DNA from: Glaciihabitans sp.
Lineage (GTDB): Bacteria; Actinomycetota; Actinomycetes; Actinomycetales; Microbacteriaceae
Direction of reading: 5' to 3'
Assembly: GCA_025464095.1 (NCBI GenBank)
Contig: JAODMF010000021.1
Location: 62,001-126,000 of the forward strand
Length of the DNA stretch: 64,000 nucleotides
Of the stretch, positions 32,592 to 60,564 are shown one piece after another. The first letter of the stretch is position 1. Every line of letters starts with the position of its first letter. A model generated the notes under the pieces. The model was not told where the DNA came from and searched no databases. It was given only the letters and a program-made list of their open reading frames with translations. The position numbers and the translations under genes are program-made.

Positions 32592-33671
32592 ATGGGCAGA
32601 CGACGTTGGCGACCGTACGTGCTGGGCCTGATCGTGCTGGCCCTCGCGATCGCCATGTGCGTGTGGGTGATCAAGTCCGGGGCTCCGCAGGCGCTCGCGA
32701 CCATGCAGGCGAACTTCCAGCAGCAGTCGGCGATCGACCGGGCGATTGACCGGATTCACCAGCTTCCCGGCATCCAATCCGTTCAGGCGCAGCGCTCGGA
32801 TGCCAACCCCCGCGCACACGACGCGGATGGCCGCCGCGCCCACGTGCGGATCCAGGTTGCAACCAAGCCAGGGATCACCACCGCCCAGCTCGCCGCCGCC
32901 GCCCAGGCCATCCGCATTGCGTGGACCGACCCGAACCTGGCGAACACCGTCGGCAACGGCGTCATCTCGGTCCCGCGCGGCGCCACGTTCACCCTGACCG
33001 CCAGGCCCACGCAGAAGCAGCTCGCCAACGAGCTGAAGTACTGGGCCGCGGTCCAGGCCGCGACAGGCACCCCGCTCAACCTGACAATCGCTCCGGCGAC
33101 GGATGGTCCGGGTTACGCGCGCGTGCTGGCGCCGGTGAAAAACACCGCCGCCGCCACGACCGCATTTCTCTCGAACTACTCCAAGGTGTTGGCGGTTACT
33201 GACGTCTCGTCCGCGCATCCGTCGTGGACCATGCCCGGCATCAGGATCGACGGCAGCCTGCCGCCCGCCTCGCTCATCTCCCTGACCTCCAAGCTCACCT
33301 CGCTGGAGCCCCTGGTGCCACCGATCCCGGCGGATGGCGACCGAGGATTCGCCATCGAGTGGACACACGTCGGCAAGGGCGTCGCGCACGCGACGGTGGT
33401 CCTCTATGACCGCGACCCGAACAGCTTGAACGACTCACGCAACTGGAGCGCGGTGGTGGACTCGACGCGGGCCGTGATCGCGGCGAAGATCCCGTCCATC
33501 GGCATCCGGTACGTCGGCGCGACGAGCGGACAGTTGACGCTCGGCGGTTGCAAAGACACCGTCTCGACGGATGACCAGGACACGACGCTGGTGACCGCCC
33601 TGATGATTTCCGCGAGCGGCCTGCCCAAGAGCACCCTCGCGGGTCACTGCGTCGACGCCGCCACGAAGTAG
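32592..33671 (+). CDS. Hypothetical membrane-anchored protein
   Basis: A 359-residue protein with a basic start (MGRRRWRPY) and one N-terminal helix (about 9-28), then an external domain with two alternating alpha/beta halves (IHQLPGIQSVQAQR ... HVRIQVATKPG, then FAIEWTHVGKGVAHATV). The pattern IDRIHQLPG...VRIQV suggests ferredoxin-like repeats, but no family is recognised. The gene is divergent from the kinase gene. Its last 16 bases, including the stop, are repeated just downstream. Confidence 0.75.
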   Translation: MGRRRWRPYVLGLIVLALAIAMCVWVIKSGAPQALATMQANFQQQSAIDRAIDRIHQLPGIQSVQAQRSDANPRAHDADGRRAHVRIQVATKPGITTAQLAAAAQAIRIAWTDPNLANTVGNGVISVPRGATFTLTARPTQKQLANELKYWAAVQAATGTPLNLTIAPATDGPGYARVLAPVKNTAAATTAFLSNYSKVLAVTDVSSAHPSWTMPGIRIDGSLPPASLISLTSKLTSLEPLVPPIPADGDRGFAIEWTHVGKGVAHATVVLYDRDPNSLNDSRNWSAVVDSTRAVIAAKIPSIGIRYVGATSGQLTLGGCKDTVSTDDQDTTLVTALMISASGLPKSTLAGHCVDAATK

Positions 33672-42696: not shown

Positions 42697-42784
42697 GGAA
42701 CCGTGTCCGAGCGGCCGAAGGTGCAACTCTCGAAAAGTTGTGTGGGTGTTGAGCCCACCGTGGGTTCAAATCCCACCGGTTCCG
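42697..42784 (+). tRNA. tRNA-Ser (CGA)
   Basis: An 88-nt class-II tRNA with acceptor GGAACCG paired to CGGTTCC, anticodon loop CTCGAAA (CGA) on stem CAACT/AGTTG, and a long variable arm. CCA is not encoded. Its last 12 bases, CCACCGGTTCCG, recur at 53538-53549, marking it as the attachment site of the adjoining island. Confidence 0.95.
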
Positions 42785-42875
42785 CTCTTTTCTCCCGCTT
42801 CTGTGCCCGTTTGGGACAACCGTTCCCGGGCGCGCGGGAACATTCGTCTCCGCAGGGCCCACACGCGGGGCGTCA
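42773..42875. repeat. Left flanking direct repeat (attL-like), family D copy 1
   Basis: A 103-base segment that begins in the 3' end of tRNA-Ser and matches 53538-53640 at 98 of 103 positions without gaps; the first 48 bases are identical. Inside is a palindrome-rich core (TGTGCCCGTTTGGGACAAC, then CCCGGGCGCGCGGG) that is also present at 60483-60564. Confidence 0.9.
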
Positions 42876-42895: not shown

Positions 42896-42931
42896 AAAAG
42901 TGTCCTGCTGCGCAGGCAGCAGGACACTTTT
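42896..42931 (-). terminator. Hairpin terminator after btpA/sgcQ-like gene
   Basis: A perfect 16-bp stem (AAAAGTGTCCTGCTGC at 42896-42911 with its complement at 42916-42931) has a 4-base loop and A/T ends that give a U-tract on either strand. It lies 16 bases after the BtpA-family gene stop (minus strand) and isolates island transcription from the tRNA. Confidence 0.88.
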
Positions 42932-42947
42932 CGAACGCCGATTGAGG

Positions 42948-43775
42948 TTAGACGCTCGCGCCCAGGGTGGAACGGAACTCGCGGACGGCCGACATCAGCT
43001 CCTCGACTCGCGGCTGCACCGCTCGGTTTGCGAACTGGCCGTCCTTCTTGAAGTACGTCCCAACAACAGCTCCGTCAGCTATGGAGAGCTGCTCGCTGAC
43101 GTTGTGTGCCCGTACGCCCGTGTTGACGAACACGGGAACGGTTCCCGCTGCGTCCTTAACGATCTTCAGAGACTGTGTGTCCGTAGGTGCCCCAGCCGTG
43201 AGTCCGGACACGCAGATTGCGTCGGGCAGCGTCGCGAAGACGGTGGTTTCGGCGATGGACTTCAAGTCGCGGCCGCCCAGGTACTGCGCAGACTCCGGAA
43301 CGATGTTGAAGAACAGCTTGACTTCGGCTGCGCCGACGCGTGCCCTGTGGCGGGCTACCTCGCCGACGTTGGTGTTCCAGAGCCCGAAGTCGCTGGCGTA
43401 GACGCCTGTAAAGATCTCGCGCACGAACTGGGCGCCGGTCGCGACGGCAAGATCGATTGAGGCGGTTCCGTCCCAGAGCACGTTCACGCCGTAGGGCACT
43501 GAGAACTCGGGAAGGAGTTCGCCGATGATGCGCGCCATCGAGATCGCGGTGATGGGCTCTGTCTTGGTGAGGTAGGGCAGGCTGAACTCATTCGACACCA
43601 TAACCGCGTCGACGCCACCTGCCTGGAGGGCTTCGAGCTCGCCCTTGGCGCGGTCGACAACCGCCGAAATTCCCGCCTTCGAGTCATAGCCGGGGTCACC
43701 CGGAAGAGCCGCCAGGTGAAGCATCGCGATAATGGGCTTCGGTGCGTCGAAAACCTCACTGAGCCAGTTAGTCAT
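42948..43775 (-). CDS. BtpA/SgcQ-family TIM-barrel protein
   Basis: A 275-residue protein of the BtpA family: PIIAMLHLAALPGDPGYD, AVMVSNEFSLPY, GVNVLWDGTASIDLAVATGAQFVRE and PVFVNTGVRAHNV with later VGTYFKKDG. The E. coli homologue SgcQ sits in the sgc sugar cluster; the enzymatic activity of this family is not established, so I do not assign one. It follows the DeoR gene by 57 bases on the same strand, and a strong terminator ends the unit. Confidence 0.9.
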   Translation of the reverse strand: MTNWLSEVFDAPKPIIAMLHLAALPGDPGYDSKAGISAVVDRAKGELEALQAGGVDAVMVSNEFSLPYLTKTEPITAISMARIIGELLPEFSVPYGVNVLWDGTASIDLAVATGAQFVREIFTGVYASDFGLWNTNVGEVARHRARVGAAEVKLFFNIVPESAQYLGGRDLKSIAETTVFATLPDAICVSGLTAGAPTDTQSLKIVKDAAGTVPVFVNTGVRAHNVSEQLSIADGAVVGTYFKKDGQFANRAVQPRVEELMSAVREFRSTLGASV

Positions 43776-43832
43776 TGAATGAATTGCCTTTCGCTTGTGT
43801 GTTGAGCTGTTTGAGATCGAGGAAGCAGTTGG

Positions 43833-44612
43833 TCACGACTGCGTCGACGTGGCGAAAATTACATCGACGCCCAAAGACGCGGCAGCGATGAGTGTCGGGT
43901 CCTGCGGAGTGCCATCGGTCACTATGGCCGATGCGGCGCTGAGGGGGGCCACGTTCATGAAGTGGGTCTGTCCGAGCTTGCTTTGGTCCGCTGCAACGAT
44001 GAGACGATCAGCCGCTCGGATGGAAGCCATCTTCACGTACCCCTCTTCGCGGTGGTAGTCCGTGAAGCCACGGACCGGATCTACCCCGGAAATCCCCATG
44101 ATGAAGGTCTCCAAGTTGTAGCGGGAAACCGAGTCGACGGCGTCAGGCCCGATAAGGCTGAGCTCGCCCGGTCGAATATTGCCGCCGGTGAGGATGATGG
44201 AAGTGTTGGGCTCCTCGGCCAGTTCGATCGCGACCAAGGTACTCGGTGTGAGAATTGTCAGCCCCAGGTCTTTTCCGCGAATGGCTCGAGCCACCGCGAG
44301 CACGGTGCTTCCGCTGTCCAGGATCACTGACTCACCAGGGGAGAGCATGGTCACGATCGATTCCGCAATCAGCCTCTTGTGCTCGCTGGCCGACTCCGAG
44401 CGAACTGCGAATGGCGGTTCCTGGGCCTTGCCCACCGCGATAGCACCGCCGATGACTTTTCGCACGACGCCCTCGGACTCAAGGACCTCGATATCGCGGC
44501 GGATCGTCATCTCCGACACGCCGAACTCGGCGGCGAGCTCCCTGAAGAGCACCTCGCCGGACTTTGCAACCCGTTGGCGGATGGTTTCTTTGCGTGCTGC
44601 GACGGTGGTCAT
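43833..44612 (-). CDS. DeoR-family transcriptional regulator (SgcR-like)
   Basis: A 259-residue DeoR repressor. The N-terminal helix-turn-helix is in LFRELAAEFGVSEMTIRRDIEVLE, the inducer-binding DeoRC domain follows, with DSGSTVLAVARAI and LIVAADQSKLG. Members usually sense a sugar phosphate. It is transcribed with the SgcQ-like gene and divergently from the ABC operon; repeated TGTGAAAC words between them are candidate operators. Confidence 0.93.
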   Translation of the reverse strand: MTTVAARKETIRQRVAKSGEVLFRELAAEFGVSEMTIRRDIEVLESEGVVRKVIGGAIAVGKAQEPPFAVRSESASEHKRLIAESIVTMLSPGESVILDSGSTVLAVARAIRGKDLGLTILTPSTLVAIELAEEPNTSIILTGGNIRPGELSLIGPDAVDSVSRYNLETFIMGISGVDPVRGFTDYHREEGYVKMASIRAADRLIVAADQSKLGQTHFMNVAPLSAASAIVTDGTPQDPTLIAAASLGVDVIFATSTQS

Positions 44613-44629
44613 CCTTCTCCCTACGTTGC

Positions 44630-44644
44630 TGTGATTGTTTCACA
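44630..44644. promoter_or_regulatory. Candidate DeoR operator, regulator side
   Basis: TGTGATTGTTTCACA is an imperfect palindrome 18 bases upstream of the deoR start. Read on the minus strand it gives TGTGAAACAATCACA, sharing TGTGAAAC with the second site at 44815. It is well placed for autoregulation. Confidence 0.55.
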
Positions 44645-44814
44645 ATGTCCTCGACTGCACAATCTGATCACGTGGGTGATACGAAGCTCCATCTGCACGC
44701 GGCTGCTAGTTGAAATCGTTGGTACCACTGACATCCGGGCCAAGGGGCGGCCGATAAAGGCACTGGAAGAGCGGGAGAAAATGCTATTGCGTAACATCCC
44801 GGAAACCTCTACGG

Positions 44815-44844
44815 TGTGAAACTGTAACAACGCATCGTTACAGT
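44815..44844. promoter_or_regulatory. Candidate DeoR operator, ABC-operon side
   Basis: TGTGAAACTGTAAC at 44815-44828 overlaps a perfect inverted repeat, ACTGTAAC (44821-44828) and GTTACAGT (44837-44844), with 8 bases between. It lies 107 bases before the permease start. The rest of the 338-base gap 44613-44950 contains no gene. Confidence 0.55.
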
Positions 44845-44950
44845 GCTCGAAGTTGCGTTCAGCGACCGCATCGTTCCGAAGCGGCTGAATGGCTCGGGCA
44901 CATCACGGTGATCGAGCATCGACGATCACATGAAGGAAGGGAACTGACTC

Positions 44951-45976
44951 GTGACGGTAACCAGCCCAGCCAAGTCGAAAATGACAGGCTTGCGCGCACC
45001 CTCTGAGGTCGGAATCTTCACAGTTCTGATACTTGTCGTGGTGATTTTGTGCATCATGTCTCCCAGCTTCCGGACCTTCAGCAACGCACTCAGCCTGTTG
45101 CTCAATGGAGCAGTGATCGCGTTCCTCACTCTGGGCCAGATGCTGGTTCTGCTCACGGGCGGCATCGATCTCTCCGCCGGGGCCACCGTGGCCTTGACCG
45201 GTGTGGCCGCCGCCATGGCCATGGCCTACGGCGCTCCCTGGTGGGTCGGGGTCATCGTGGCGCTCGCATTGGGCCTATTGGTCGGCGCTGTCAACGGGTT
45301 CATCATCCACTACGGGCGGGTTCCCGCCTTCATTGCGACCTTCGCGATGATGGGCGTGGCATCGGCCATTCCTATGGTGTTGACGAATGCTGCGTCTCTC
45401 ACAGTCGTCGATGGCGCATTCTCTGTCATCGGTCAAGGCAAGATCCTGAGTGTTCCAGTTCCGGTTGTGTTGCTCGGCGTGGCAGCCTGCATCGTTGCAG
45501 TGGCCCTCGCGCGCACCAAGTTCGGCGTGCACGTGTACGCGATGGGCGGGAGCGCTCCAGCTGCCCGGCTTGCGGGAATCAACATCGGTCGAAACATCGT
45601 CACCGTGTATGCACTGTCGGGGTTCTTCGCTGCCATCGGTGGACTCATCCTGACTTCACGCCTGATGGTCGGGTACCCGAGTGCGGGACTCGGGAACGAA
45701 CTGTTCTACTCCATCGCTGGCGCAGTCGTCGGAGGTGTGAGCCTCTTCGGCGGTGTCGGCACCGTCGGCGGAGCGATGATCGGTGCCGTTCTCATCGCAA
45801 CCGTCACCAACGGTCTCAACGTCCTCAACGTCAACAGCTATTGGCAGTCATTCGTGATCGGGATCATCATCCTTGCCGGTGTCTTCTACGACACCAACCG
45901 GGCCCGTCTTCGTGGCATTCCCCTCGCCAAGCGGCTCTACGCGCTCACCCGTCGCGGCTCAAGTTCCGACGCATAG
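44951..45976 (+). CDS. ABC sugar importer permease (RbsC family)
   Basis: A 341-residue integral membrane protein of the carbohydrate-uptake-2 family with about ten helices. Family motifs are LTGGIDLSAGA and GAVVGGVSLFGGVGTVGGAMIGA. It starts with GTG behind GAAGGGAA. It is the first gene of the plus-strand island operon, preceding the binding protein and ATPase, so the importer is complete (one permease forming a homodimer). Confidence 0.94.
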   Translation: MTVTSPAKSKMTGLRAPSEVGIFTVLILVVVILCIMSPSFRTFSNALSLLLNGAVIAFLTLGQMLVLLTGGIDLSAGATVALTGVAAAMAMAYGAPWWVGVIVALALGLLVGAVNGFIIHYGRVPAFIATFAMMGVASAIPMVLTNAASLTVVDGAFSVIGQGKILSVPVPVVLLGVAACIVAVALARTKFGVHVYAMGGSAPAARLAGINIGRNIVTVYALSGFFAAIGGLILTSRLMVGYPSAGLGNELFYSIAGAVVGGVSLFGGVGTVGGAMIGAVLIATVTNGLNVLNVNSYWQSFVIGIIILAGVFYDTNRARLRGIPLAKRLYALTRRGSSSDA

Positions 45977-46051
45977 GCCCCCTGACTCCTCGAAGCCGAA
46001 TCGCGCTTCGCAGGATGCACCACCCAAACACAGTAGGAAGGAACAAGCGTC

Positions 46052-47074
46052 ATGAAGAAGAAGACTGCCCTTGTGGCCTCGATGGTCACAGCGGTCACCC
46101 TCGCGTTGCTGCTGGCGGGCTGTACCCCGCCAGCAACCTCCACTTCCGGAGCCGGCATCGTAGGCGCCACTGCAACCGGTACCGTCAAGGCCACCAAACT
46201 CCCCCAATCGTGCAAATCGGCCAAGCCCGTCATCGGGGTCGCGTTGCCGGATACCACCAACCCCTACTACGTCGCGATGCGCCAAGGCTTCCTCGACGCC
46301 GGCGCGAAGGATGGTTTTAATGCGGTTGTCGCGGTGGCGAACGACGATGACGCCACTCAGCTCGCCCAGGTGCAATCCTTCATCCAGCAGAAGGTCTGCG
46401 CTGTCGCGCTGAACCCGGTCAACTCGGGTCCGGGTGCAGCATCCGTGAAGGCCCTGAACGATGCGGGCATCCCTGCATTCACCGTGAATCTGCTGGTCAG
46501 CGGGTCCGACCTGAAGACTCAGGGCGCGCACATCACCCAGTTCGTCGGAGCTGACCAGGTGCAAGGTGGCCGGGCCCAGGGCGAGCAGGCGGTCAAGGAC
46601 TTCGCCGGCACACCGATCGTCACCGGAATCGTCGGATTCCCGAACTCCGTGACCGCGAACCAACGAGACGATGCCTTCACAAAGGCGCTCGGCAGCAAGG
46701 GCACTATCAAGACGAAGGTCGATGGAAAAGCTGACCCGAACGTCTCCCTTCAGGTGACCACGGACATGCTGCAGGGCAACCCCGACATCAACGTGGTGTT
46801 CGGTGACACCGGACCCGCGGTACTCGGCGCAATTCAGGCAGTCAACCAGCTCGGACTCGCTAAGAAGGTCTCCGTGTACGGCTTCTGTGCCGCGAACACC
46901 GCCTTGAAGGGCGCGTACAAGTCCTGCGTCGCGCAGGAGCCGGCCGTCTACGCCGCCACCGTGGTGAAGAGCATTCGGAGCTACGTCGACGGCAAGTCCA
47001 TCGAAGCCACTATCCTCGTGCCCGTCATCTCATTCGTGACCGGCGGAAAGCCCGACGCAACCCAGCTCGGCTAA
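46052..47074 (+). CDS. Sugar-binding lipoprotein of ABC importer
   Basis: A 340-residue periplasmic-binding-protein-4 family lipoprotein. The lipobox is LLAGC (cysteine near 24), after which KPVIGVALPDTTNPYYVAMRQGFLDAG opens the first domain. It would capture the sugar at the cell surface for the adjoining permease. Three cysteines late in the protein (FCAANT, KSCVAQ) may form a disulfide. A good GTAGGAAGGAA site precedes the ATG. Confidence 0.92.
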   Translation: MKKKTALVASMVTAVTLALLLAGCTPPATSTSGAGIVGATATGTVKATKLPQSCKSAKPVIGVALPDTTNPYYVAMRQGFLDAGAKDGFNAVVAVANDDDATQLAQVQSFIQQKVCAVALNPVNSGPGAASVKALNDAGIPAFTVNLLVSGSDLKTQGAHITQFVGADQVQGGRAQGEQAVKDFAGTPIVTGIVGFPNSVTANQRDDAFTKALGSKGTIKTKVDGKADPNVSLQVTTDMLQGNPDINVVFGDTGPAVLGAIQAVNQLGLAKKVSVYGFCAANTALKGAYKSCVAQEPAVYAATVVKSIRSYVDGKSIEATILVPVISFVTGGKPDATQLG

Positions 47075-47177
47075 CGAACACACCTCCAAGAGACAGGCAC
47101 AGGACATGCCAGATTTCATCACTCCGAGCCCTTCCACGCCACCAGCGTCGGGTCCCGGAACACAAGAAGGATCTGGC

Positions 47178-48686
47178 ATGTCCAGCCTGTCGCTTCGGAA
47201 CCTGAGACGGTATTTCGGTGACACTCACGCTCTTGACGGAGTGGACATCGATATCCCCACCGGCTCCCTGACTGCTTTGATCGGACATAACGGCGCGGGA
47301 AAATCGACCCTGCTCCGCATCTTGTCCGGTGCGGACAGGCCGGACAGCGGATCGCTGATCCTCGATGGCCGAACGACTCAGTTCAAAAGCCCCAACGATG
47401 CCCTCGGTCAAGGGGTGAGCGCGGTCTATCAAGAGCTGTCGATGGTTCCCGGACTGTCCGTCGCCCAGAACATATTTCTCGGGCACGAGGAGACGTCCGG
47501 CGGATTCCTCACCCGGCGAGCGATGAACGCGCAGGCGACCGAGCTCTGCGCCCGCTTTGATATCCCCGTCGACGTCACCACATTGTTGGGTGAACTCCCC
47601 GTTGCCCAGCGCCAGCTGATCGAGGTGGCGGCAGCGGTGAATCGCAAGGCCCGCTTTCTGCTGCTCGACGAACCCACCACGGCACTCGAAGCCAGCCAAG
47701 TGGACAAGCTCCTCAGCACGGTCACTTCCATTGCACGTGCAGAGAATCTCGGTGTGCTCCTCATCGACCACAAACTCGACGAGGTCTTCGCCTATTCCGA
47801 CCACATCGTGGGCCTCGCCAACGGCCGACGGATCCTGGATGGCGCGACCTCCGAGCTGACTCGGCAGGACGTAGTGGACGCCATCGTGGGCAGCCATTTC
47901 GAAGAGAACACGGCGTCCCGGCGTCCGCAAAAGGCCGCCACCATGGGTGAGCCCGTCCTGACCGCGAAGGGCCTCACGACCGCGCGACTGACCGACGTCA
48001 ACGTCACCGCTCGTGCTGGCGAAGTCGTTGCCCTATACGGGCTGATGGGAGCCGGTCGCACGAGCTTCCTTCGCACCGTCGCCGGACTGTACTCTGCCGA
48101 GTCCGGCTCGATCCAACTCGGGAACCATGCCTACGCCCCCAAATCGGTGCGTGCAGCAAAGCGCGCGGGAATCGCCTACGTCTCCGAAGAACGCAAGGTC
48201 GACGGAATCATCCCCAATCTCGGCGTATACGACAACGTAGGCATCTCGGTGCTCGACAGATTCTCCGCCCTCGGGTTCATTGACAAAGGGAAGGTTCGGC
48301 ACGCGGCGGCCCAGAGGCTCGCCTCCATGCAAACCCACGGAGACCTCACCAAGAGCATCGCCTCGCTTTCAGGCGGAAACCAGCAGAAGGCGCTCCTGGC
48401 TCGCGCCTTCCTCCAAGAGCCCAAACTCCTCCTTCTCGATGAGCCGACCAAGGGCGTTGACATCGGTGCGAAAGCCGAGATTCACGCGCTGATCCGACGC
48501 CTCGCAAGCGAAAGCGGAACCGCCGTGATCGTTGTCACCAGCGAAGAGGAAGAGGCCCTCACCCTTCCCGACTCGATCTATATCTTCCAAGACGGCACCT
48601 GCAGCAGAGGGCGACTCGACCCAGCAGATCTCACGGTTGCCGACCTCAAAAAACTGGCCTGGCTCGAAGAGACCCCAGCTCCATGA
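47178..48686 (+). CDS. ABC sugar importer ATPase, double domain (RbsA family)
   Basis: A 502-residue protein with two ATP-binding cassettes. The first has Walker A GHNGAGKST, and its signature region is degenerate (GELPVAQRQLIEV). The second has a weak Walker A (GLMGAGRTS), typical of RbsA, and signature LSGGNQQKALLA with Walker B LLLLDEPTKGVD. The ATG at 47178 behind AAGGAT is preferred; an ATG at 47106 would add a 24-residue unstructured start. Its stop overlaps the kinase gene ATG. Confidence 0.93.
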   Translation: MSSLSLRNLRRYFGDTHALDGVDIDIPTGSLTALIGHNGAGKSTLLRILSGADRPDSGSLILDGRTTQFKSPNDALGQGVSAVYQELSMVPGLSVAQNIFLGHEETSGGFLTRRAMNAQATELCARFDIPVDVTTLLGELPVAQRQLIEVAAAVNRKARFLLLDEPTTALEASQVDKLLSTVTSIARAENLGVLLIDHKLDEVFAYSDHIVGLANGRRILDGATSELTRQDVVDAIVGSHFEENTASRRPQKAATMGEPVLTAKGLTTARLTDVNVTARAGEVVALYGLMGAGRTSFLRTVAGLYSAESGSIQLGNHAYAPKSVRAAKRAGIAYVSEERKVDGIIPNLGVYDNVGISVLDRFSALGFIDKGKVRHAAAQRLASMQTHGDLTKSIASLSGGNQQKALLARAFLQEPKLLLLDEPTKGVDIGAKAEIHALIRRLASESGTAVIVVTSEEEEALTLPDSIYIFQDGTCSRGRLDPADLTVADLKKLAWLEETPAP

Positions 48687-50170
48687 CCGTCGTGGCCGGG
48701 GTGGATTCGTCGACCCAATCCTGCACTGTCGCGCTCTACGAAAGCGCTTCTGGAACGTTTCTCGGCACCGGCACGGCACGGCATCCGTCGACCACCCCAC
48801 CGGTCAGCGAACAGAACGGCGACGACTGGTGGCGCGCTTTCCAGCTTTCCCTCGGACGCGCGTGCGAGAACGCCGGGATCAGCAGCCACGAAATCCGGGG
48901 GATCTCAGTCGCGGCGCAATACCACGGCCTCGTCGCTCTCGACGAAAACGATGAGCTCGTTCGCCCGGTGAAGCTCTGGAACGACACCACGTCCAATCCG
49001 CAGGCCGCGGAATTGGTCCGACAGAAGCCTCAAGGATGGTGGGCGCGTGAGGTCGGGTCCACCCCGACCGCTGCATTCACCATCACGAAGGTCGCCTGGC
49101 TCGCGGAGAACGAGCCGGCAAACTTCCGGAAAACCCGCACCGTGCTGATGCCGCACGACTGGCTCACCTTTCGATTGACTGGCCGAAAGGTCACCGATCG
49201 CGTCGATGCTTCCGGAACAGGGTACTTCGACGCTGCGCGAGAGACCTGGCGTTACGACATCCTCGCCGAAGTCGACGACACGATCGACTGGCATGAACTG
49301 CTCCCCGAGGTACTCGGCCCCGACGAGCCGGCTGGTCATGCGGAAACCCAGGCAGCGCGCGAACTCGGACTGCTCCCGGATACCGTCGTGGCCTGCGGAA
49401 CGGGGGACCAGGCGGCCGCCGCACTCGCCCTCGGGCTGGATGGCACGGGCGCTGCGATCTCCCTTGGCACGTCTGGAACCGTCATCACTAGTTCTACCCG
49501 AGCGGTTTACGATCCTGCCGGCGAGATCAACGTAACCGCGAATGCCCAAGGCGGATTCCAGCCCATCGCCGTCCTGCTGAACGCAGCCAAAGTCACCGAC
49601 ACCTTCGCTCGCATCCTCGGTGTCGATCACCTTGAGCTCTCGAACCTCGCCCTCGCTTCCCAGCCGGGGTCGGCCGGACTCCCGACCCTTGTCGCCTACC
49701 TCGACGGGGAGCGAACCCCTGATCGACCGACGGCGCGTGGACTGATGGCCGGCATCTCCACCTCCACGACTCGAGAAGACATGGCCCGCTCGGCCTTCGA
49801 AGGGGTCGCATTCGGCCTGCGAGCAGGTCTGGATGCCATCCGGCGAATCGGCCTCACCATCGACGGACCGCTCCTGCTCACGGGGGGAGCGGCAATCTCC
49901 GAGGCGTACCGAACGGTACTCGCCGACGTGTTCGAGTCGGATGTGTCCGTCGTCGAGGGCAATACGAGTCTGGATGTCGCTAGAGGTGCAGCCATCCAGG
50001 CCGCTGCCGCGCTCGGCGCAAGCAGCGTCACCGTCGTGAAAGCCGCATGGCGACGTCCGTCCCGCATCGTCGCGAGCCCCGACAGCCAGACCGCAGACCG
50101 CACCCGTCTCGCCTACCGGCGCTACCTCACCGTCCGCGACAATCGCGACTTCGACGGTCTCTTCGCCTGA
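48683..50170 (+). CDS. FGGY-family sugar kinase (xylulokinase-like)
   Basis: A 495-residue kinase of the FGGY family, closest in motifs to xylulokinase: VAGVDSSTQSCTVAL, VAAQYHGLVALDE, GTGDQAAAALALGL, GTSGTV, DGERTPDRPTARG and GGAAISEAY. It would phosphorylate the imported ketose or polyol at the cost of ATP, which an ABC importer, unlike a PTS, does not do. Its ATG overlaps the ATPase stop. Confidence 0.92.
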   Translation: MTVVAGVDSSTQSCTVALYESASGTFLGTGTARHPSTTPPVSEQNGDDWWRAFQLSLGRACENAGISSHEIRGISVAAQYHGLVALDENDELVRPVKLWNDTTSNPQAAELVRQKPQGWWAREVGSTPTAAFTITKVAWLAENEPANFRKTRTVLMPHDWLTFRLTGRKVTDRVDASGTGYFDAARETWRYDILAEVDDTIDWHELLPEVLGPDEPAGHAETQAARELGLLPDTVVACGTGDQAAAALALGLDGTGAAISLGTSGTVITSSTRAVYDPAGEINVTANAQGGFQPIAVLLNAAKVTDTFARILGVDHLELSNLALASQPGSAGLPTLVAYLDGERTPDRPTARGLMAGISTSTTREDMARSAFEGVAFGLRAGLDAIRRIGLTIDGPLLLTGGAAISEAYRTVLADVFESDVSVVEGNTSLDVARGAAIQAAAALGASSVTVVKAAWRRPSRIVASPDSQTADRTRLAYRRYLTVRDNRDFDGLFA

Positions 50171-50198
50171 TCCCCTTCCAGCTATCTAGGAGAATCCC

Positions 50199-51317
50199 AT
50201 GACCACAACTTCACCGACCACAGAATTCGATCTGGCACGAACGCTGAAGCAACTCTGCGCAATCGGGGCCCCATCCGGCCACGAAGACCGACTTATCGTG
50301 TTCGTCAACGACTGGCTGACAGAACGCGGGCTCACCCCGACGATCGACCGACTCGGCCAGATTACTGTCTCGTTCCCGGGTAGCGATCCCGAGGCCAACA
50401 GCGTTCTGGTGTCGGCGCATCTCGATCAACTCGGTCTCGTGGTGTCGAATGTGGACGCCAATGGGTACGTCAGATTCGAACGGCTCGGCGGCGTGCCCGA
50501 GCGGGTACTGCCCGGCACGCGAATCGTCATCCATACGTCGAAAGGCGACGTCCCCGCCGTGGTCGGCCTGAAATCCCACCACCTCACCCCGCCGGAAGAC
50601 AAGTACAAGGCCCTGCCGACGGCCTCGCTCTACCTCGACCTGGGCGCAGACAGTGCCGCCGCCGTCGAAGCCCTCGGAGTGCGGGTCGGCGACCCCTGCG
50701 TCTACGAGTTCAGCTGGACCGAGCTCGACGGGGGCCGCTTCTCCACCACCTCACTGGACGACCGACTCGGAGTGGCGGCGCTGCTCGCACTCGTCGAGCG
50801 GCTCATTGATGCCTCCCCAGCAGGCACCGTCCACGTTGCCTTCACCACTCAGGAAGAGTTCCACGTTCGCGGAACTCTTGCTCTCATCCAAAAACTCGAC
50901 CCGGACATCGTCATCAACGTCGACGTGGCTCCGGCCGCAGACACTCCTGATCTGGCAGGCGCGACCGCTGTCAAGCTCGGCGAAGGTCCCGTGCTTAACC
51001 GGCTCTCGTTCCACGGACGGGGCACTCTTGGAGGACTCATCCCTCATCCGGCACTGCTCGAGGCCGCAGACGCCGCCGCCGCGGCTGTGTGCGACAGCTT
51101 CCAATATGAAGTCATCATCGGGCTTATCAACGACGCCGCCTTCGTGCCGATGGCGTCCGGCAAGGGAATCGCGACGATGGGAGTGGCCATTCCCACCCGC
51201 TACACCCACAGCCCGATCGAGACCGCGCAGCTCACCGACCTCGAACAGACCGTGATCCTGCTCGAACGTCTCGCTGGCGACTGCGCAAGCCTCAACCTGG
51301 AACGTCCACGATTGTGA
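50199..51317 (+). CDS. M42-family peptidase/aminohydrolase (SgcX/FrvX-like)
   Basis: A 372-residue M42 metallopeptidase. Expected two-zinc ligands are all visible: His in SAHLDQLG, Asp in LDDRLG, Glu-Glu in TTQEEF, Asp in VNVDVAPAADTP and His in RYTHSP. In classic M42 enzymes the first motif is HxDEIG, here HLDQLG. The E. coli homologue SgcX is part of the sgc cluster. A natural substrate within this pathway is unknown. The ATG follows AGGAG, and the stop overlaps the epimerase gene (GTGA). Confidence 0.9.
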   Translation: MTTTSPTTEFDLARTLKQLCAIGAPSGHEDRLIVFVNDWLTERGLTPTIDRLGQITVSFPGSDPEANSVLVSAHLDQLGLVVSNVDANGYVRFERLGGVPERVLPGTRIVIHTSKGDVPAVVGLKSHHLTPPEDKYKALPTASLYLDLGADSAAAVEALGVRVGDPCVYEFSWTELDGGRFSTTSLDDRLGVAALLALVERLIDASPAGTVHVAFTTQEEFHVRGTLALIQKLDPDIVINVDVAPAADTPDLAGATAVKLGEGPVLNRLSFHGRGTLGGLIPHPALLEAADAAAAAVCDSFQYEVIIGLINDAAFVPMASGKGIATMGVAIPTRYTHSPIETAQLTDLEQTVILLERLAGDCASLNLERPRL

Positions 51318-51964
51318 CCCGGCTGTTCGCTTCGCTGACCAGCATCGATGTCGGCGAACTCGTGCCCATCATCGAGCGGCTCGAAGAAGCCGGAGTCGAC
51401 GGCTTTCATATCGACCTTTCCGACGGTGTGTTCACGCCCGGCCTGCTCTTCGGCCCCAACGTGGTCAAGGCTGTATCCACGCGAACCACACTTCCGGTGG
51501 AGGCACACCTGATGACAACCAATCCAGATGTGTACGTTCAGCCACTTGTCGATGCGGGGGCGCTGCGGGTGTCCTTTCACTGGGAAGCGACGCTGTACCC
51601 CTGGAGAACCGTGTCGATTCTCGAGAAGGCGGATTGCGCGGCCGGAATCGCCTTCAACCCCGCCACGCCCGTGCCGGATCTCTCCTATCTCATGCACTCC
51701 GTGGCTTTCGTCAACCTGCTCACAACCGAACCTGACGTCGCGGGAGAGAAACTCCTGCCGACGATGGCCGAACGGGTGAGCCGATTTCGTTCTCTTCTGC
51801 CCGAGACGATCGCCATCGAGGTCGACGGGGGCATCGAGGCGACCTCCGCAGGGGCATTGATCACTGCTGGCGCCTCCGAGGTCGTGATGGGCAGATCACT
51901 GGTGTCCTCTCCCGATCCGAGAGCTGTAATTGCGGCGGTAAGGGCCATCCCCGTGTCGCATTGA
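51314..51964 (+). CDS. Ribulose-phosphate 3-epimerase-like protein (SgcE-like)
   Basis: A 216-residue TIM-barrel protein of the RPE family. Metal ligands appear in FHIDLSDG, AHLM and VDGGI, with FHWEA as the phosphate-side motif, so it should be active on a ketose phosphate. Divergence from housekeeping RPE (HIDLSDG for HxDVMDG) suggests an epimerase for another sugar phosphate, as with SgcE and AlsE. GTG start overlaps the M42 gene. Confidence 0.88.
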   Translation: MTRLFASLTSIDVGELVPIIERLEEAGVDGFHIDLSDGVFTPGLLFGPNVVKAVSTRTTLPVEAHLMTTNPDVYVQPLVDAGALRVSFHWEATLYPWRTVSILEKADCAAGIAFNPATPVPDLSYLMHSVAFVNLLTTEPDVAGEKLLPTMAERVSRFRSLLPETIAIEVDGGIEATSAGALITAGASEVVMGRSLVSSPDPRAVIAAVRAIPVSH

Positions 51965-52048
51965 GATCGTCGGGAACATCACCAATCTGATCGTCGATAG
52001 TCACTTCCACTGCCTGGCGTGGAGGTTTTTGAAAGAGTCGAGAAAAAA

Positions 52049-53521
52049 ATGACAGAAACTGACCCTCAATCGCAGCACGGCGCCGAGTATGCACCGCTGA
52101 ACCGTGACGAGGAGCTGTGCTTCCAGACCGTGGGCGAGCTCGAAGCAGCTCTCGACCGCGGCGACTTCACGAGCGAAGAGCTCACCCTCCTGCACCTGCA
52201 GCGAATTGATCGACTGAACCCGCAGATCAATGCGTATGTGACCGTGCTGGCCGAGCAGGCGCTCGAGTCTGCGAAGAGGTCTGATGATCGTCGGCGTGCC
52301 GGTGAGAAATCCGGCAGCCTCGATGGGATCCCGGTGTCTGTGAAAGATGTGGAGCCGATGGCGGGAGTGCGCTTCACAATGGGCGGACTCGTTCCGATGA
52401 GTGACCACGTGTCGAACCTCGATCCGGACCACGTGAAAGCGCTGCGCGACGGAGGAGCAGTGATCCTCGGTAAGACGAACGGTCCCGAGCTGGGGCACAA
52501 AGGAACCACGGACAACCTTCTCTTCGGCCCGACGAAAGCTCCGTTCGACTTGCGGTACAACGCCGGCGGCTCGTCGGGAGGGGCAGCGGCTGCAGTTGTC
52601 GCCGGGCTCGCAGTGGTCAGTCAGGGATCGGATGGCGGCGGTTCACTGCGCATCCCCGCCGCAATGACAGGATCGGTCGGCTACAAGGCTTCTTCTTTGC
52701 GAGTTCCCGAGGTGCGACGCCCGAACGCATTCCAGGCGCTGTCACCCTTTCAAACGATTGGCATGATCGGCCGGACCGTCGCGGACACCCGTACGGCGAC
52801 CAATCTCCTCGCCCGACACGTGTCTCGTGATCCGTTCTCGTGGCCCTTCCCCGTGGTCGCCGAAACCCAGTCCTCCGTGAGAATCGGATTCGATCCCCGA
52901 TTCGGCAACTTTCCCATTGCGAACGATGTGGCAGTTGCGACGGCCGAACAGATGACAAAGCTGTCGAGATCGCTTCACGTCGAGGACCTCCACGTCGGCC
53001 TTCCCGACTATGCCGAACTCGCTGAACTCTGGGTGCGATTGATCTCCGTGCAGACGGCCGTGCTCGCAGAAGATTTCCGAGCATTCGGAGTCGATCTTCG
53101 AGGCAAGGACCGCGACAGCATTCCGCCCGAACTGGCCCGCGAGATCGAGATCGGGGATCGGATGTCCGCCGTTGACAACTCACGGGATCAAGAATTCAGG
53201 ACGCGAGTCCTCGACGCGATCGAGGATGCTTTCGAGGTGGTGGACATCATTGCGACGCCGACCCTCTGCGTTGCAGGCGTGCGCAATGGTGAACGGGGTC
53301 GCACGGTCGGTCCGAGCGACGTGGAGGGCATGCCCACCGAGACGACAATCGGTTGGACCCTGACGTTCCCGGTGAACTTCAGCGGGCATCCGGCCATCAG
53401 TATCCCGATCGCCACCACAGCCGACGGCCTCCCTATTGGGCTTCAGCTTGTTGGGCGACGCGGATCAGACGAGCTACTGCTTCATACCGCGGAGAGCATC
53501 GCGCGTCTCCTCGCTGCCTGA
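52049..53521 (+). CDS. Amidase-signature family hydrolase
   Basis: A 490-residue amidase-signature enzyme. The Ser-cisSer-Lys triad is readable: lysine in VSVKDVE, cis-serine in GGSSGGAAAAV, and nucleophile in GSDGGGSLRIPA. The C-terminal end is the usual SIPIATTADGLPIGLQLVG. It lies 84 bases after the epimerase gene and is the last gene in the island; the same-strand placement suggests it serves the same pathway. The start ATG at 52049 is preferred; a GTG at 52019 would add 10 residues. Confidence 0.9.
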   Translation: MTETDPQSQHGAEYAPLNRDEELCFQTVGELEAALDRGDFTSEELTLLHLQRIDRLNPQINAYVTVLAEQALESAKRSDDRRRAGEKSGSLDGIPVSVKDVEPMAGVRFTMGGLVPMSDHVSNLDPDHVKALRDGGAVILGKTNGPELGHKGTTDNLLFGPTKAPFDLRYNAGGSSGGAAAAVVAGLAVVSQGSDGGGSLRIPAAMTGSVGYKASSLRVPEVRRPNAFQALSPFQTIGMIGRTVADTRTATNLLARHVSRDPFSWPFPVVAETQSSVRIGFDPRFGNFPIANDVAVATAEQMTKLSRSLHVEDLHVGLPDYAELAELWVRLISVQTAVLAEDFRAFGVDLRGKDRDSIPPELAREIEIGDRMSAVDNSRDQEFRTRVLDAIEDAFEVVDIIATPTLCVAGVRNGERGRTVGPSDVEGMPTETTIGWTLTFPVNFSGHPAISIPIATTADGLPIGLQLVGRRGSDELLLHTAESIARLLAA

Positions 53522-53537
53522 TTGCACCACCAGGTAT

Positions 53538-53640
53538 CCACCGGTTCCGCTCTTTTCTCCCGCTTCTGTGCCCGTTTGGGACAACTGTTCCCGGGCGCGC
53601 GGGCACATTCGTCTGTGCAGGGCCCACACGCGGGACGTCA
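53538..53640. repeat. Right flanking direct repeat (attR-like), family D copy 2
   Basis: This copy reproduces the last 12 bases of tRNA-Ser and 91 bases beyond it, with 5 mismatches to 42773-42875. Its final TCA is the stop codon of the minus-strand histidine kinase. It lies 16 bases after the amidase stop. Confidence 0.9.
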
Positions 53641-60482: not shown

Positions 60483-60564
60483 GGTTCCGCTTCTGTGCCC
60501 GTTTGGGACAACTGTTCCCGGGCGCGCGGGCACATTTGTCTCCGCCGGGCCCATACGCCGGGCG
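60483..60564. repeat. Dispersed repeat, family D copy 3
   Basis: It begins GGTTCCGC followed by TTCTGTGCCCGTTTGGGAC and the CCCGGGCGCGCGGG core, matching the island-flanking repeats but lacking the 13 bases TCTTTTCTCCCGC. It is not next to a tRNA and lies between two minus-strand genes, within 22 bases of the response-regulator start. Confidence 0.85.

Follow-up and report, generated by a model that had tools for sequence, protein, structure and literature searches.

The window analysed here, a 64,000-nucleotide stretch of a Glaciihabitans sp. genome (GCA_025464095.1, contig JAODMF010000021.1, positions 62,001–126,000 of the forward strand), carries a nine-gene cluster resembling the sgc cluster of Escherichia coli, in which an ATP-binding cassette (ABC) importer and a kinase probably take the place of the phosphotransferase system (PTS). 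All nine genes are open reading frames scoring above their Pfam family cut-offs, which bears out the identities assigned in the first-pass annotation. Two genes lie on the minus strand: one encodes a BtpA/SgcQ-family protein (42948–43775), a predicted phosphate-binding TIM barrel, and the other a DeoR/GlpR-type regulator (43833–44612; HTH_DeoR and DeoRC), which is 52–65% identical to most other BtpA-linked actinobacterial DeoRs. Divergent from these, seven genes on the plus strand encode an RbsC-type ABC permease (44951–45976; PF02653), an RbsB-type substrate-binding protein with a pocket that is not ribose-like (46052–47074; PF13407), an RbsA-type ATPase with two ABC domains (47106–48686; PF00005 over two stretches), an FGGY kinase of the xylulokinase type (48683–50170), an M42-family metallohydrolase of the SgcX clade (50199–51317), an SgcE-type epimerase with the fold of ribulose-phosphate 3-epimerase (RPE) (51314–51964; PF00834), and an amidase-signature hydrolase (52019–53521; PF01425, 286 bits). 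These seven are closely packed, with two 4-bp overlaps, one of which joins the M42 and epimerase genes inside the operon, and gaps of 28–75 bp elsewhere.

The nine genes are exactly what lies between two 103-bp direct repeats whose first bases are the 3′ terminus of a tRNA-Ser gene, a feature newly recognized here. The tRNA-Ser (CGA) gene (42697–42785, plus strand), located by ARAGORN and Rfam, forms with its 3′ end the left edge of the island. The left, attL-like repeat (42773–42875, plus strand) opens with 13 nucleotides that are the tRNA-Ser 3′ end; the right, attR-like repeat (53538–53640, plus strand) is 95% identical to it and includes a copy of the same 3′ end. The guanine-plus-cytosine (GC) content of the cluster is 62.1%, compared with 67.7% and 67.6% in the flanks, and the GC content at third codon positions (GC3) is 0.70–0.80 in the cluster genes, 0.86–0.91 in three left genes and 0.78–0.81 in two right genes. 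The marks of a tRNA-site genomic island, a tRNA 3′ end in direct repeats at both edges and a deviant composition, are thus present. Because, in addition, the nine genes are the sole cargo between the repeat copies, the cluster appears to make up the entire content of an island acquired at a tRNA gene.

The BtpA protein is 60.9% identical to SgcQ of E. coli MG1655 and scores far above the family thresholds (PF03437, 284.2 against 30 bits; TIGR00259, 304.6 against 153.4 bits), and it reaches 163.4 of the 400 bits required by the photosystem I factor BtpA equivalog NF045918. The first-pass annotation held that the same four non-PTS proteins occur here as in sgc; this stands at the subfamily level for SgcQ, SgcE and SgcX, which are found together as in an sgc-type cluster, and is less well supported for the regulator, which belongs to the same DeoR family and is only 29% identical to SgcR over 214 residues. 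No match to PTS IIA, IIB or IIC models, and hence no SgcABC, was found in positions 33001–63000 of the window.

The M42 protein is 31% identical to SgcX (MG1655) and belongs to its family (PF05343, 220.6 against 23.2 bits), with retention of the conserved His/Asp/Glu motifs, which presumably bind metal. A tree of 40 rows includes, in addition to the window protein and SgcX, 12 proteins from BtpA loci; 11 of these 12 fall into one 15-row clade with the window protein and SgcX (support 100/99). The clade also holds L132 and L096 (L numbers denote individual loci), in which no BtpA is visible on contigs of 9.6 and 8.6 kb with the M42 gene at most 2 kb from an end. Outside the clade stand L218, 22 M42s without BtpA in the 1–2 kb flank examined, and the E. 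coli M42 proteins FrvX and YpdE, which likewise sit in PTS gene sets. The tree carries long-branch warnings, SgcX, L092, L147, L132 and L096 among them, and odd composition was flagged for L185 and L186. The closest row to the window protein is L186, 61% identical, and the M42 relatives at this level, L185 and L186, come from other families of the class. Among 13 rows compared, an aromatic residue follows the EE motif in 8 of 9 SgcX-clade proteins vs 0 of 4 others.

The epimerase shares 34% identity with SgcE over 185 residues and 32% with Rpe (both of MG1655); since identity alone does not place it, trees were built. In a 16-row tree, the window protein, SgcE of E. coli and Salmonella, and the PTS-linked rows L092, a Chloroflexota metagenome-assembled genome (MAG), and L051, a Salinibacterium MAG, separate from ordinary RPE and AlsE (100/97). 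With four plasmid relatives added, to make 20 rows, the same five group together at 94/92, below the program's star, and the exact place of the window epimerase is unsure because its branch is long. The five SgcE-type proteins share the motif T[TS]EP[DE], whereas the loop is of the NPGFGGQ or EPGFGGQ type in the ordinary enzymes shown. A housekeeping RPE was rejected on three grounds: a score of 157.3 against the 212.6 bits of TIGR01163, the replacement of the NPGFGGQ-type loop by TEPDVAGEK, and the presence of a second, ordinary RPE gene elsewhere in the host genome.

The module was followed across 174 BtpA loci (80 named genome loci, 80 of 99 further places, 5 relatives, 8 plasmid loci and the window), some of them cut by contig ends, by seeking families up to 10 kb from BtpA with models from window and neighbour proteins and with score limits of our own choosing. 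The well-scoring set comprises 134 loci with a BtpA score above 330. In the 22 loci with RbsABC only, including the window, FGGY is present in 21, DeoR in 19, M29 in 14, DhaK in 12, M42 in 6 and short-chain dehydrogenase/reductase (SDR) in none. The 74 loci with MalEFG only contain FGGY (71), DeoR (71), SDR (67) and M42 (3), without M29. Four loci have both importers (FGGY 4, M29 3), three have a PTS (FGGY 0, epimerase 3, M42 2), and 31 show no importer (FGGY 23, M29 8, M42 1). FGGY thus accompanies BtpA in 96 of 100 ABC-type vs 0 of 3 PTS-type loci; the alternation of a PTS with an importer plus kinase recurs among BtpA loci, and the proposal that such a pair has replaced the PTS in the window is supported. 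M42 or the unrelated M29 occurs in 20 of the 22 RbsABC-type loci, and across all 174 loci M42 is found in 14 and M29 in 25, never both in the same locus; the M29 association is partly post hoc, since M29 was noticed in these same data. M29-bearing loci include L014, L030, L034, L056, L080–L084, L139, L140, L179, L180, L195 and L196.

To reduce the weight of Mycolicibacterium, the source of many MalEFG loci, the loci were thinned at 70% BtpA identity, leaving 59, of which 34 have a BtpA score above 330. The thinned set retains 12 RbsABC loci (M42/M29 in 10, FGGY in 12, SDR in 0), 12 MalEFG loci (2, 12 and 9, respectively) and two PTS loci without FGGY, so that FGGY is present in 24 of 24 ABC-type loci. 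As a BtpA-less control, 40 regions were taken at lower-scoring Actinomycetes FGGY places (of 52; glycerol-kinase-like top scores were not used): FGGY exceeds the limit in 33 of the 40, RbsABC is present in 6, and M42 or M29 in none (0 of the 33 FGGY loci), the control covering one class and the BtpA set several phyla. A chance grouping is unlikely, because BtpA recurs with FGGY, M42/M29, DeoR and importers in several phyla, as against this control.

The importer has one permease gene, whereas 20 of the 22 RbsABC-type BtpA clusters have two. Sixteen pocket sites of the binding protein were compared in E. coli RbsB numbering, six of them positions that we take to belong to the pocket. The other ten ribose-pocket positions are those given in PMC2630998. 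N13, N64, R141, F214 and Q235 are kept, and five sites are changed (D89N, R90L, S103A, N190T and D215C). A ribose importer was rejected by these residues and by the RbsB score (NF007936, 73.8 against 337 bits). At 19 other RbsABC-bearing BtpA loci, the binding proteins have E89, A/S90, W141 and W235 in common, from which the window protein differs, and the same importer as in those clusters was also rejected, the pockets differing at most of the 16 sites. The kinase passes the NCBI xylulokinase cut-off (TIGR01312, 405.5 against 380.25), which points to, at least by sequence, a xylulokinase-type enzyme.

Among those found, the nearest relatives of the importer and kinase lie in cassettes on plasmids of Pantoea, Erwinia, Duffyella and Rhizobium, with identities of 55–56% for RbsC, 41–46% for the binding protein, 43–46% for RbsA and 40–45% for the kinase; at a Rhodococcus plasmid locus, the kinase is 48% identical. 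The window and the four cassettes have the pocket residues P9, N13, Y15, Y16, N64, N89, L/I90, R141, T190, F214 and Q235 in common and differ at positions 103, 132, 137, 164 and 215. The Pantoea cassette is oriented divergently to a Gat-like PTS gene set (its IIC scores 320.6 bits, short of the 542.2 required for Gat) and to genes for RPE (224.3 over 212.6), SDR and 6-phospho-3-hexuloisomerase (208.7 over 160). By annotation, the Erwinia and Duffyella loci contain the same genes, the Duffyella stretch being cut at IIC; importer/kinase and PTS thus stand side by side in these loci, and the three plasmids (L244, L246 and L247) carry a double import set. The Rhizobium cassette lies beside genes for a SIS-domain protein and an RPE-like protein, both under their cut-offs. 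The annotation gives two genes for RbsA in Duffyella (L247) and two, which overlap, for FGGY in Rhizobium sp. L51/94 (L245).

An AlphaFold model of BtpA, built from 38 sequences with a predicted local distance difference test (pLDDT) score of 88.6, adopts a predicted eight-stranded barrel. In Foldseek and a second aligner, the model matches phosphate-binding barrels, including PcrB, RPE, hexulose-6-phosphate synthase, KDPGal aldolase, HisF and DHPS, and all 999 of 999 matched chains have Z scores of at least 8, with a best score of 19.0 and 17.3 at rank 50. Because the matches are many and the scores close, no single structural relative is claimed, and likeness of a predicted fold alone shows no function. 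A search by sequence found no solved structure of the family, and a search of viral contigs found no BtpA relatives. Eight residues (H20, D56, N62, R119, D185, S190, D234 and K243) show conservation of 97% or more in 150 sequences; the invariant K243 comes after strand 8. BtpAs at least 74% identical to that of the window occur with RbsABC, MalEFG and PTS import alike, which suggests that BtpA performs one common reaction downstream of several import routes.

Taken together, the cluster is best read as a horizontally acquired, self-contained catabolic island at the tRNA-Ser 3′ end that specifies a pathway of the sgc type with an ABC importer and a kinase instead of the PTS; we put the probability of this at roughly 0.75. 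The binding protein, permease and ATPase would import a small neutral polyhydroxy compound other than ribose. The xylulokinase-type kinase would then phosphorylate it at a terminal carbon, taking over the job of the PTS in E. coli sgc, as its family and the presence/absence pattern indicate. The SgcE-type epimerase and the SgcQ/BtpA barrel, the latter fold being a predicted model, may convert the sugar phosphate into a central metabolite. The SgcX-type M42 protein and the amidase could cleave amide bonds by hydrolysis, either in the substrate or in an intermediate, and the simplest case would be the release of an amino compound from a sugar conjugate; this is the weakest of the proposed steps and is possible rather than probable. 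Because amidase matches are rare near BtpA (6 of 174 loci), the amidase may be an accessory. As is usual for its family, the DeoR protein would repress the divergent operons until sugar phosphate accumulates.

Several observations weigh against this interpretation or call for caution. No integrase match exists among the nine genes, and the repeat body without the tRNA part recurs at window positions 60487–60564 (92%) and in four further copies on other contigs of the host genome (79–83%). An empty tRNA-Ser site, sought through the right-flank gene, was not found, the 39 other genomes yielding one match (38% identical, at order level). A search of 248 other genomes of the same family for the M42 protein gave no hit at E 1e-30. 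In the recurrence data, the PTS sample is three loci, and at 60% thinning none is left, while the M42/M29 contrast falls to 4 of 5 vs 1 of 7 (p 0.07). The co-occurrence of five gene families (BtpA, M42, epimerase, FGGY kinase and RbsABC) that the first-pass annotation expected in other genomes is found there in the form of the broader module; the strict five stand together in the window only, of 174 loci. In two spirochaete loci (L083 and L093), the set occurs with M29, and the RPE-family gene there retains a loop of the NPG type. Furthermore, neither BtpA nor M42 was found at the five scanned plasmid loci (Pantoea, Erwinia, Duffyella, Rhizobium and Rhodococcus). Because its Pantoea and Rhizobium plasmid relatives lack both, the importer/kinase cassette of the window is, by its apparent sequence relationships, a separate recruitment. 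The transported compound therefore need not demand SgcQ or SgcX, and this is the strongest result against such a demand; the earlier hope that the cluster could identify the sgc substrate is weakened accordingly.

The same plasmid relatives favour an ordinary pentulose or pentitol cassette (RbsABC, xylulokinase and epimerase) that merely adjoins BtpA and M42, which would serve something else: in Pantoea, Erwinia, Duffyella and Rhizobium, kinase and importer have SIS isomerases and an RPE or RPE-like gene close by, without BtpA or M42, and the window kinase passes the xylulokinase cut-off. However, the window epimerase groups with SgcE and not with the Pantoea and Erwinia RPE (94/92), the M42 and epimerase genes are packed inside the operon with their 4-bp overlap, and the binding pocket has lost the ribose-site residues D89, R90, N190 and D215, which together leave this explanation unlikely. 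A retro-aldolase activity of BtpA, releasing dihydroxyacetone from a ketose phosphate, would fit the DhaK-like genes in 12 of the 22 RbsABC-type loci, the DhaK and DhaL of L083, which score just under their cut-offs, and the aldolases among the nearest solved fold relatives of BtpA. DhaK, however, is near only 1 of 74 MalEFG-type loci and is absent from the window and the three PTS loci. A lysine-type aldolase is not supported, strands 4–6 containing no fully conserved lysine; the candidate lysine where strand 5 begins, K153, is present in 74% of the 150 sequences. We regard the retro-aldolase as quite improbable. Four-carbon polyol pathways were also considered and set aside.

A sugar-amide conjugate as the substrate (an amino-acid glycoside, an Amadori compound or an N-acyl amino polyol) would be a sharper form of the preferred sgc-type pathway, in which M42 and the amidase would release the nitrogen-bearing moiety and the sugar phosphate would continue along the pathway. 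The recurrence beside BtpA of unrelated amide hydrolases (M42 in 14, M29 in 25 and amidase in 6 of the 174 loci) agrees with it, as do a PIG-L deacetylase and a gamma-glutamyltransferase-family gene in annotated BtpA loci. Conversely, the largest group, the MalEFG type, has SDR in 67 of 74 loci but M42/M29 in only 3 of 74, and a July 2026 paper (PMC13343008) describes the E. coli sgc mutants that it tested as having no growth defect on standard substrates or on 190 Biolog carbon sources; the conjugate is a serious candidate, with the odds somewhat against it. BtpA/SgcQ may tentatively be considered to mark an undescribed, widespread branch of carbohydrate catabolism, with one BtpA phosphosugar reaction and several feeder routes (PTS; ABC, kinase and M42/M29; ABC, SDR and kinase), in which M42 and M29 would be dedicated to sugar-amide conjugates and would not be peptidases; we place this just short of an even chance.

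Between the divergent operons lie a 24-bp palindrome with 8-nt arms and an 8-nt spacer (44821–44844), a candidate operator, and a second palindrome (44908–44929). A loose pattern of the former was not found upstream of the DeoR genes at 105 other BtpA loci, by which a conserved operator across BtpA loci was rejected. Just downstream of the BtpA gene is a terminator-like perfect 16-bp inverted repeat with a 4-nt loop (42896–42931), and about 78 bp of the sequence downstream of the tRNA-Ser gene form a dispersed repeat. Among other BtpA loci, the sgc-type cluster of the Chloroflexota MAG L092 is followed by a PTS enzyme I gene, so that a general PTS part travels with the cluster. The Rhizobiales plasmids L124 and L126 carry BtpA (60–61%) with a PIG-L deacetylase, a Gfo/Idh/MocA oxidoreductase, a sugar-phosphate isomerase and an alpha/beta hydrolase, FGGY kinase not being annotated in the stretch shown. 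L201 has a tandem pair of BtpA genes, and the Promicromonospora locus L078 has three amidase matches with a MalEFG importer, SDR and FGGY.

The sgc-type pathway is already known as unsolved, and the window adds a variant with importer and kinase as a new handle on its substrate. In the ABC version, both the binding protein and the kinase are soluble and can easily be screened against compound libraries in a way that a membrane PTS does not allow, so the substrate question becomes testable with soluble proteins. From the comparison, an enzymatic role can also be proposed for BtpA-family proteins and for the M42 "peptidases" of an entire clade. The alternation of M29 and M42, the tRNA island and the PTS-type cluster of another actinobacterium, the Salinibacterium MAG L051, whose BtpA is 76% identical to that of the window, had gone unnoticed in the first-pass annotation. 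In one literature library, no paper was found pairing BtpA with FGGY or SgcX with M42 aminopeptidase, which leaves absence from print unproven. The sgc substrate is called unestablished (PMC13343008), and sgcXBCQAER is suggested to form a single SlyA-repressed unit whose PTS serves an unidentified sugar (PMC5797941).

Compared with known systems, the plasmid cassette of Pantoea, Erwinia, Duffyella and Rhizobium (kinase-rbsC-rbsB-rbsA) shares with the window a related importer and kinase, most pocket residues and a nearby RPE or RPE-like gene. It lacks BtpA and M42, and adds a Gat-like PTS, SDR and HxlB in Pantoea and Erwinia, and a SIS isomerase in Rhizobium. Clusters of RbsABC, M29/M42, FGGY, BtpA and DeoR are found in spirochaetes, Actinomycetes, Chloroflexota and Bacillota, and have in common with the window the importer family, the kinase family, a metallo-aminopeptidase-type gene, BtpA and DeoR. 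They differ in having another pocket (19 compared), mostly two permeases (20 of 22) and often DhaK (12 of 22), and an RPE-family gene, with the ordinary loop, is seen only in L083 and L093. In the case of E. coli sgc (sgcXBCQAER), the window has instead of the PTS SgcABC an RbsABC importer and an FGGY kinase, together with an added amidase, a distant regulator (29%) and a divergent gene order, whereas BtpA (61%), the SgcE-type epimerase, the SgcX-clade M42 and a DeoR-type regulator are shared.

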